Source: Deltaproteobacteria bacterium (lineage in GTDB: Bacteria > Desulfobacterota > Desulfobacteria > Desulfobacterales > G020354645). Taken from it: DNA of 64,000 nt. The position numbers were made by a program, and so were the translations under genes. Below the pieces are notes generated by a model. That model made no database searches and had not been told where the DNA came from. It worked only from the letters and a program-made list of their open reading frames with translations. The stretch is from positions 4,563,145 through 4,627,144 of the forward strand of contig CP070652.1 in assembly GCA_020354645.1 (NCBI GenBank). The letters run 5' to 3'. Of this stretch, positions 49,367 to 51,750 are shown in pieces; position 1 is the stretch's first letter, and every line of letters begins with the position of its first letter.

Positions 49367-49475
49367 CGGTTTCAAAACCCTTTTCGAAGCCATTTTGCGA
49401 TCTTTGGCTCCAACGCGCTTCGTCCCGCCCGAGCGGGATAAAGTTTGAAGCTGTTCGGGCAACAACCCGTTAAGA
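49367..49475 (+). repeat. F-type repeat, left half only
   Basis: Begins ACGGTTTCAAAACCC and continues GAAGCCATTTTGCGATCTTT, matching the left part of the 23616 copy, then breaks off. It lies directly after the 2-hydroxyacid oxidase stop codon. Confidence 0.6.
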
Positions 49476-50076: not shown

Positions 50077-50300
50077 ACCATTGGATGCTGAAGTTCAGCA
50101 GTCTCTATCAATTCAATTTTTAATATTTTACTTGCCTATTTCCATCCTATATTGTATACTCCCCAAAAATTTTGAGGGATAAAAATTTGATCGCAAATCG
50201 TCTAAAAAAAATTCAAACAAAATTCTTCAGCCAGCATTTGTGGCGACTTTATAAAGAGGATAAAACCTCGATCAGATAATCAATTTTCAGCGTGAAATCA

Positions 50301-50337
50301 AAACCCTTTCAGTTTTCATGCTGAAAGGGTTTTTTTA
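50301..50337 (+). terminator. Strong intrinsic terminator
   Basis: AAACCCTTTCAG (50301-50312) and CTGAAAGGGTTT (50321-50332) form a perfect 12 bp stem with an 8-base loop, followed by T7 with the stem end included. It is 225 bases past the secreted-protein stop codon, so it may end a separate small transcript as well. The 50077-50300 segment holds no gene. Confidence 0.8.
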
Positions 50338-50493
50338 TTAAAAGAAGGTGAGTAAACCGAAAAATGCGTTGGTTTCTGAAACATCGACAAATATTTAGCG
50401 AAAGTAATAATTACGCGGAAACATTGATTCCAGTTAATTGGATGCTCTTTTGTACCCAAAATTTGAACGGTATACATTGTTTTGATTTACCGA

Positions 50494-50513
50494 AAGGAGA
50501 AGAGCCTATGTAG
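50494..50513 (+). promoter_or_regulatory. Ribosome site followed by ATG-TAG (start-stop)
   Basis: AAGGAG at 50494-50499 is 8 bases before ATG (50508-50510), which is immediately followed by TAG (50511-50513). The transcript would end at the terminator at 50542-50585. A possible TATACA box lies at 50471-50476. It may be a minimal start-stop element or the remains of a gene. Confidence 0.4.
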
Positions 50514-50541
50514 AACGCAATTTTCTTTCAGTGTGTATATT

Positions 50542-50585
50542 AAAGCCCCTTTCGGTATTTAATCATACTGCGAGGGGTTTTTTTT
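50542..50585 (+). terminator. Intrinsic terminator upstream of the tRNA genes
   Basis: AAAGCCCCTTTCG pairs with CGAGGGGTTT across a loop, followed by a run of T (T8 including the stem end). It separates any transcript from the left from the tRNA cassette. Confidence 0.65.
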
Positions 50586-50742
50586 GGGCAAATTTTGGGT
50601 CATCCGCTCAGACGGCAGCACACCCGACTGATACCATTCGTTCGATTCCGATAAGGATTCACTACAAATAAAGCGGGAAGCTTGGTGTCGATATCCAATC
50701 ACAGGGTGATAGCTGTATTAATTGGAGAATCAAGCAATTATG

Positions 50743-50818
50743 GTGGGGGTAGCTTAACCGGCAGAGCACCAGGTTGCGGCCCTGATTGGTAGCGGTTCGA
50801 TTCCTCTCCCTCACCCCA
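50743..50818 (+). tRNA. tRNA with His-type acceptor and GCG anticodon
   Basis: 76 bases with CCA encoded. Acceptor GTGGGGG pairs with CCCTCAC (one G-T pair). D arm is GCTT with GAGC. The anticodon stem is CCAGG with CCTGA (outermost pair C-A mismatched) around loop TTGCGGC, so the anticodon is GCG (codons CGC/CGU, Arg). T arm is AGCGG and CCTCT around TTCGATT, with one mismatch. The discriminator is C73 and the base before G1 is G, giving the G-1:C73 pair that marks tRNA-His. Normal His anticodon is GTG. The mismatches and 8-9 bases TA are typical of a divergent, perhaps phage-derived, tRNA. Confidence 0.78.
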
Positions 50819-50837
50819 TAAAGAATCATTTTGGAGG

Positions 50838-50911
50838 GGTTCTGTAGCTCAGTGGCAGAGCGCATGCCTTATAAGCGTGTGACCCAGGTTCGATTCCCGG
50901 CAGAACCACCA
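50838..50911 (+). tRNA. tRNA-Ile with TAT anticodon
   Basis: 74 bases with CCA encoded. Acceptor GGTTCTG and CAGAACC pair perfectly. D arm is GCTC/GAGC. Anticodon stem CATGC/GCGTG holds loop CTTATAA, anticodon TAT for AUA codons. T arm is CCAGG/CCCGG with one mismatch, and the discriminator is A. Most bacteria read AUA with a CAT-anticodon tRNA modified to lysidine; TAT versions are rare. It lies 19 bases upstream of the HNH start codon. Confidence 0.85.
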
Positions 50912-50930
50912 AAGAAAAGGACATGGAAAA

Positions 50931-51440
50931 ATGAACACTGCATGCATTCTGCTAAACGGTGACTACACCTTTCTTCGGCTTGTTGACTGGAAAAAGGCCA
51001 TATGCCTGGTTATCGCCGATAAGGTAGTCGTCCTGAAGTACTCGGATAGAACTATCCGGGGCGTCGGAAAGGTGTTTCCGGTCCCCGCGGTTCTTGCGCT
51101 GATAAAAATTGTGCGAAGTGTTTATCGCAGCAAAGTACCCTTCAGCAAAAAGAATGTCCTGATCCGTGACCGATTTACTTGCGCCTACTGTGGGGCAAAA
51201 GAAAAACCGTTCACGATTGACCACGTGATTCCACAGTCAAAAGGTGGCAAAACCGATTGGGAGAATTGTGTAACGTGCTGCCAGGAGTGCAATAACAAGA
51301 AAGGATCTCGACTGCCGGGAGAAACGGGAATGCATCTGATAAGACGGCCTTTCCAGCCGACCATTGCCGAGTTCATCAGGATTCGGCTTGAGCAGTCGGG
51401 GGTATACGACTTCTTAGTCGAACTGGGTATTTACAGTTAA
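50931..51440 (+). CDS. HNH endonuclease
   Basis: 169 residues. The HNH core is C84-x2-C87 (FTCAYC), D97-H98 (FTIDHVIPQSKGG) and C117-x2-C120-N121 (CQECNN); the cysteine pairs bind structural zinc and the His and Asn the catalytic metal. The N-terminal 75 residues (LNGDYTFLRLVDWKKAICLVIADKVVVL) are those of the common stand-alone HNH group found in phages and bacterial genomes. It is placed between tRNA genes, with an ATGGAAAAATGA overlap just before its start, so translation may be coupled to a three-codon peptide. It may be a homing-type or phage-derived nuclease. Confidence 0.9.
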   Translation: MNTACILLNGDYTFLRLVDWKKAICLVIADKVVVLKYSDRTIRGVGKVFPVPAVLALIKIVRSVYRSKVPFSKKNVLIRDRFTCAYCGAKEKPFTIDHVIPQSKGGKTDWENCVTCCQECNNKKGSRLPGETGMHLIRRPFQPTIAEFIRIRLEQSGVYDFLVELGIYS

Positions 51441-51448
51441 TTCAGATA

Positions 51449-51477
51449 GGGGAGGGCCTCAAACGGCTCTCCCTTTT
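51449..51477 (+). terminator. Intrinsic terminator after the HNH gene
   Basis: GGGGAGGGCC pairs with GGCTCTCCC (one G-T) around a short loop and is followed by TTTT. It comes before the tRNA-Phe gene, which therefore needs its own promoter or read-through. Confidence 0.6.
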
Positions 51478-51509
51478 CCATCAACCTCACTGCCCCGCCA
51501 GAATCGTTT

Positions 51510-51587
51510 GGAGAGGTAGCTCAGCGAGGTAGAGCATCAGGGTGAAATCCTGAGTTTGCGCTGGTTCAATTCCGGCCCTCTCCGCCA
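51510..51587 (+). tRNA. tRNA with GAA (Phe) anticodon and G73
   Basis: 78 bases with CCA encoded. Acceptor GGAGAGG and CCTCTCC pair perfectly; D arm GCTC/GAGC; anticodon stem TCAGG/CCTGA perfect with loop GTGAAAT, anticodon GAA; T arm GCTGG/CCGGC around TTCAATT. The discriminator is G, whereas A73 is the usual element for phenylalanyl-tRNA synthetase, and base 32 is G. These differences suggest a divergent or foreign tRNA. Confidence 0.83.
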
Positions 51588-51750
51588 TCTCGCCTACAGG
51601 TCAACAGAAAACTGGCTTTCTATTTCAATCCCTCTTTGACGACTATTCGCTTGGGCGACGTATTCATCATTGACACATGGTTCCTCATTTGCCATAGTTC
51701 AGCATCCCAAACGTAGTTACACTCATTTTATGGAAAGGTAAGAAGAAGTT

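Follow-up and report, generated by a model that had tools for sequence, protein, structure and literature searches.

Results

A three-tRNA cassette around an HNH gene

The stretch of DNA analysed here (the window, 64 kb) spans positions 4563145-4627144 of a genome assembled as a single 5.57-Mb contig, and towards its end three tRNA genes and an intact HNH endonuclease gene are packed together on the same strand (Table 1). ARAGORN finds exactly three tRNA genes in the entire window, and their Rfam RF00005 scores (49.5, 66.8 and 56.5 bits for tRNA1, tRNA2 and tRNA3, with E-values from 1e-7 to 2e-12) are so far above the gathering threshold of 29 that the three are not chance matches. When parsed by hand, each tRNA has an encoded CCA; tRNA1 and tRNA2 have one T-stem mismatch each, and tRNA1 has a mismatch in the anticodon stem as well. 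The HNH gene starts 19 bp past tRNA2 and its stop codon lies 69 bp ahead of tRNA3. The hairpin in this second gap (GGGGAGGGCCTCAAACGGCTCTCCC, then TTTT) is a possible but weak candidate for a terminator between HNH and tRNA3, and was not counted by the terminator scan. The accompanying promoter scan gave no convincing promoter.

Table 1. Features of the cassette, in window coordinates
Feature	Position	Strand	Description	Basis
Cassette	50743-51587	+	three tRNAs (GCG, TAT, GAA) and HNH gene within 845 bp	
tRNA1	50742..50818 (including G-1)	+	tRNA-His body with anticodon GCG (Arg CGC/CGU)	ARAGORN (tRNA-Arg(gcg), 50743-50818); RF00005
tRNA2	50838..50911	+	tRNA-Ile, anticodon UAU (reads AUA)	ARAGORN; RF00005
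HNH gene	50931..51440	+	HNH endonuclease, 169 aa, intact	PF14279 HNH_5, 7e-18; phrog_16726, 3e-33
Hairpin	51450..51475	+	hairpin then TTTT, 3' of HNH stop	read from sequence
tRNA3	51510..51587	+	type-I tRNA, anticodon GAA (Phe)	ARAGORN; RF00005

Pfam and PHROGs identify the flanking genes as encoding an Fe-ADH, an FMN dehydrogenase, an IalB-like secreted protein, an epimerase and MFS transporters, and among the flanking ORFs these searches returned metabolic families only, with no integrase or phage structural gene. Nor are there att-like or other flanking repeats, the only recurrences being the self-similarity of the tRNAs and short repeats at chance level, so that none of the features by which a prophage or integrative element would be recognised (integrase or structural genes, att repeats) accompanies the cassette. 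A search of phages and plasmids returned no DNA match to the whole cassette, only to single tRNAs. The DNA directly upstream (49.57-50.74 kb) has a GC content of 36%, against 48% for the window, which hints at foreign DNA. No fourth, decayed tRNA was detected in 50077-50742, 51441-51509 or 51588-51750, where alignments to the tRNA pool were no better than those of shuffled sequences and a permissive Rfam scan was also without a match.

Several further observations concern the upstream DNA. A perfect 12-bp inverted repeat (ACCCAAAATTTG / CAAATTTTGGGT) surrounds 123 bp at 50454-50600, just ahead of the cassette. A terminator hairpin accounts for the weak Rfam matches at 50207-50344 (PyrR, L10 leader), which were not considered further. 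The segment 49360-50735 was also considered as a possible repeat and dismissed, since only its first ~85 bp recur in the genome; at 49368-49455, stretches of 53-88 bp have about 20 copies in the host genome, which are 77-91% identical and look like an intergenic repeat family.

Three non-standard tRNAs

The first tRNA combines features of two identities. By hand it reads GTGGGGG...CCCTCAC-C-CCA, and the genomic G that precedes it (50742) provides a G-1:C73 pair, the mark of bacterial tRNA-His; position 37 is G. Arginine identity depends on A20 and on A or G at position 73, and tRNA1 has C at both positions (20 as numbered by hand, and 73). Its anticodon loop, TTGCGGC, differs from that of the host tRNA-His, TTGTGGC, in a single base (position 35, T to C). 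The two mismatches are C27.A43 in the anticodon stem and C51.U63 in the T stem. Over the whole gene, tRNA1 shares 74% identity with the tRNA-His of its host, at most 82% with tRNA-His from other genomes of the order and at most 78% with viral tRNA-His. A pattern search for a His-like body with TTGCGG found it in one of 389 genomes of the order, the host itself. Two viral matches to the pattern proved to be Arg-type tRNAs with A73 rather than His-type, and the three GCG tRNAs in the viral comparison set all have A73.

The other two tRNAs are closest to viral ones. In tRNA2 (loop CTTATAA, A73, mismatch A51.C63) the anticodon arm, CATGCCTTATAAGCGTGTGA, has exact matches in 29 viral contigs, mostly inside tRNA clusters, and the whole gene is up to 82% identical to viral tRNA-Ile(TAT), including 81% to that of Synechococcus phage S-T4, compared with at most 70% to host tRNAs found (150 of 285 candidates were scored, so that the host list is incomplete and all such identities refer to the tRNAs found). 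In the record of that phage (MH412654.1; 1502-1649 of our extract L202) the tRNA-Ile(TAT) and tRNA-Met genes are unannotated. For tRNA3, which has the acceptor stem GGAGAGG/CCTCTCC, G73 and the loop GTGAAAT with an odd G32...U38, the nearest relative is the tRNA-Phe of a viral contig (L237), at 82% identity and with the same GGAGAGG 5' acceptor strand, versus at most 69% for host tRNAs found. Among 25 distinct viral tRNA-Phe compared, 21 have A73, three U73 and one G73. For such short genes, identity gaps of this size are modest evidence. In viral contig L240, tRNAs for His, Ile(TAT) and Phe share a strand and follow the order of the cassette, with further tRNAs interspersed. On a bacterial contig from the same taxonomic order (L183; G165:C203, 491-2413) there are seven divergent tRNAs, His then Ile, along with what by eye is an Fe-S oxidoreductase-like gene.

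The initial annotation, which had described three non-standard tRNAs within 850 bp around an HNH gene, agrees with ARAGORN, RF00005 and HNH_5, and its terms 'His/Arg hybrid', 'rare TAT' and 'G73 instead of A73' are accurate on hand parsing. Its remark that no other phage gene was visible is borne out by flanks free of integrase and prophage genes, whereas the attachment-site-like repeats that it had suggested looking for were not found, so that the cassette may be either of the two forms that it had proposed, a small stand-alone element or a prophage remnant.

The host's own tRNAs

The host has its own tRNA-His(GTG), tRNA-Phe(GAA, with A73) and Arg isoacceptors (acg, tcg, ccg, cct, tct), as well as three CAT tRNAs: an initiator, an elongator and one Ile2-like, the last a probable tRNA-Ile2(CAT). 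TilS is also present, and AUA, at 13.5 per thousand codons in the window, is not rare. With its own His, Phe and CAT tRNAs, TilS and no scarcity of AUA, the host does not obviously need the cassette for decoding, and the cassette looks dispensable. It was not found in the 389 genomes of the order. Elsewhere in the host genome (G000:C1:448168-448568; L192:8169-8492), Pro(TGG), Asn(GTT), Thr(TGT) and Trp(CCA) tRNAs form a cluster with 5-8 bp spacers, flanked by host genes, in which Trp scores just 34 bits, Thr has TTCA at its 3' end where NCCA would be normal, and Pro seemingly lacks a normal discriminator before its CCA.

The HNH gene and its relatives

The HNH protein keeps the motif CxxC...DH.IP.S.GG...CxxCN (CAYC...DHVIPQSKGGKTD...CCQECNNKKG in the translation), so that the HNH and zinc-binding residues to be looked for in a homing endonuclease are intact. 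Full-length relatives occur in roughly 40 of the 96 genomes of the order compared for HNH kin, all from families other than the host's own, and usually lie between unrelated host genes; the host itself has a second copy at 2885 kb (54%). The nearest relative (75%) is in a Desulfosarcina MAG beside ordinary genes, the next (71%) is again chromosomal, both are without tRNAs, and the other named kin come from further Desulfobacterales MAGs. Of the 33 chromosomal HNH loci examined, a single one (L034) lies near a tRNA, a tRNA-Glu ~270 bp off; the arrangement is that of G006, a further genome of the order (L187, G006:C328, 2361-3207), in which the HNH belongs to the same subclade (66%) and the tRNA-Glu(TTC) is divergent.

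In viruses the setting is different, as HNH relatives sit inside tRNA arrays in five of ten annotated phage records and two of seven viral contigs. The gene follows a tRNA by 13-47 bp in four phages, close to the spacing seen here: in Mx1 the order is tRNA, 13 bp, HNH, then tRNA; in Rctr197k and Mimi the gap is 21 and 34 bp; and in Big4 it is 47 bp before HNH and 72 bp after. Phage S-CBWM1 has its HNH relative within a tRNA cluster, and in viral contigs L135 and L136 a tRNA begins 2-4 bp past the HNH relative. The HNH tree places the window gene with Desulfobacterales chromosomal genes, nearest to Desulfosarcina, and a clade with 100/99 support joins Desulfobacterales HNHs and six viral sequences, L135 and L136 among them, which indicates that phages and Desulfobacterales share a gene pool. 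As its closest kin are chromosomal and without tRNAs, and chromosomal loci near a tRNA are so few, the window HNH may have been drawn from the bacterial pool instead of arriving with the tRNAs.

Discussion

We consider it likely that the cassette is a short fragment or a miniature of a phage-type tRNA array (variant tRNA-His, tRNA-Ile(UAU), HNH, variant tRNA-Phe) captured in a Desulfobacterales-like chromosome. That tRNA clusters with HNH genes belong to phages and mobile elements, as the initial annotation had proposed, is upheld by the kin of tRNA2, of tRNA3 and of the HNH/tRNA layout in phage contigs. In the source array, the tRNAs would have supplemented or replaced host tRNAs during infection, serving codon supply and standing in for tRNAs destroyed by host anticodon nucleases; the initial suggestion that such tRNAs counter anticodon nucleases or make up for codon bias is a plausible one in light of the literature. 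The HNH protein would have acted as a homing nuclease: it would cut loci that lack the array or carry a variant of it, and repair of the break would copy the array in. Spare in the present host, the tRNAs are probably drifting there.

The closest described counterparts are the tRNA array units of mycobacteria, where an HNH gene is embedded in redundant, divergent tRNA arrays (PMC12803027; PMC5966550) and is the most widespread gene in them, although not a strictly defining one (PMC12803027; PMC5966550). Like those of mycobacterial plasmids, phages and chromosomes (PMC5966550, PMC12803027), the cassette has divergent, host-redundant tRNAs (no more than 74% identical to host tRNAs found, which agrees with the redundancy and divergence described in PMC12803027), an embedded HNH (HNH_5, 7e-18) and dense packing, and the mycobacterial chromosomal copies also lie among host genes. 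It differs in its Desulfobacterales-like host and in one tRNA of mixed His/Arg character, as well as in size. The definition as quoted in PMC5966550 sets at least 20 tRNAs at a density of at least 2 per kb; the cassette has the density (3 in 845 bp, ~3.6/kb), but with three tRNAs in the 64-kb window it is far too small, and so is better regarded as derived from, or working like, an array unit than as a full member. A second comparison is with large phages (Myxococcus phage Mx1, Rctr197k, Microbacterium phage Big4, Arthrobacter phage Mimi and S-CBWM1), in which an HNH of the same broad family directly follows a tRNA, with further tRNAs 3' of it in Mx1, Big4 and S-CBWM1. In contrast to the situation there, the cassette has no phage gene around it, and its HNH is only about 34-43% identical to theirs. 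A link between homing endonucleases, phage tRNAs and anti-defence has been made for SegB (PMC13096335), and tRNA-linked homing nucleases of this kind spread or amplify tRNA loci (SegB, PMC13096335).

A phage origin must be set against the metabolic flanks, which hold neither phage genes nor att-like repeats, and against the body of tRNA1, which by identity appears nearer to Desulfobacterales tRNA-His than to any viral one. Could the tRNAs then be ordinary, vertically inherited host genes that flank a mobile HNH by chance? The likeness of tRNA1 to the tRNA-His of host and order (74-82%) would fit, as would the frequency of this HNH family as a chromosomal gene in the order. The initial annotation had reasoned that the genes would be ordinary if they were the only copies of their isotypes and conserved in synteny across the order, and had pointed to the host's tRNA-His, tRNA-Phe, tRNA-Ile(CAT) and TilS as the genes to check. 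The host proved to have standard tRNA-His and tRNA-Phe of its own, TilS and a probable tRNA-Ile2(CAT), the closer matches of tRNA2 and tRNA3 are viral, and the cassette is absent from the order genomes searched; redundancy and lack of conservation thus largely refute this explanation, which we regard as very improbable. More room must be left for the possibility, tentative but serious, that the HNH alone is mobile and entered a pre-existing array by itself, between two of its tRNAs, in which case the tRNA habitat of the HNH would reflect a target-site preference and not co-inheritance. Its relatives occupy many unrelated chromosomal sites in the order, mostly without tRNAs, the two closest included, but an HNH tens of bp past a tRNA recurs in unrelated phages, and a divergent tRNA-Glu lies ~270 bp from the HNH of G006. 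For the tRNAs themselves, independent insertion of the HNH is compatible with capture from a phage-type array.

The nature of tRNA1 poses a separate question. It may be a decayed tRNA-His, the product of a sequencing error, or a phage tRNA resistant to nucleases. That its GCG arose by a one-base error in sequencing, or by neutral decay of an otherwise plain additional tRNA-His(GTG), is about as likely as not: one base separates the two anticodons in a loop that is otherwise His-like, two stem mismatches are already present, and the pattern search found this type in no other genome of the order, but the assembly is a single contig, the three tRNAs carry no other sign of error and the HNH frame is intact. 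As for nuclease resistance, phage tRNAs have been proposed to replace those cut by host nucleases (PMC10264068), and the anticodon-loop changes in tRNA1 (U35C) and tRNA3 (G32/U38) resemble those of nuclease-evading phage tRNAs (PMC10264068), except that there the anticodon is generally kept and in tRNA1 it is the anticodon itself that has changed; nor did any such nuclease come to light in this host. Ranked below these, and less likely, is a dual-identity tRNA that mistranslates: HisRS would charge tRNA1 through G-1:C73 and histidine would be placed at some Arg CGC/CGU codons. Both His determinants are genomically encoded, C replaces the A20 of arginine tRNAs, and C73 stands where the viral GCG tRNAs compared have A73. 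G-1:C73 is the major HisRS determinant and by itself is enough to make a tRNA-Ala minihelix accept His (PMC9976931), and as the anticodon is a minor one (PMC9976931), which does count against this reading, His charging of tRNA1 is conceivable. There is also a precedent in tRNA-ProX of Streptomyces and Kitasatospora (PMC11415595), a dual-identity mistranslating tRNA that, like tRNA1, joins the identity elements of one amino acid to an anticodon for a different one, in a host that also has the normal tRNA. Here, however, the amino acids are His and Arg rather than Pro and Ala, Asn or Thr; the host has one HisRS above the family cut-off and thus no dedicated paralogue comparable to ProRSx; C27.A43 and C51.U63 point to relaxed selection; and, in place of conservation across species, the type is confined to one genome, with no His-type counterpart among the viral tRNAs. 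We therefore think natural dual identity unlikely and favour a decay mutation or base-call error over mistranslation. Slimmer still is the chance that tRNA1 is a functional His-accepting tRNA reading Arg CGC/CGU codons from a phage-type cassette which, with the G73 tRNA3, would hold more than one identity-switched tRNA.

A phage-type tRNA cluster with an HNH gene is of a known kind; a His body with an Arg anticodon is the unusual part of it, and the literature searched, which lay mostly outside subscription journals, yielded no natural His/Arg chimera tRNA. The cassette is a small, probable relic of a phage-type tRNA/HNH array in a Desulfobacterales-like chromosome, and its tRNAs still allow the kind of donor to be recognised. 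A functional tRNA1 would represent a type of natural mistranslating tRNA for which we found no description in that literature.
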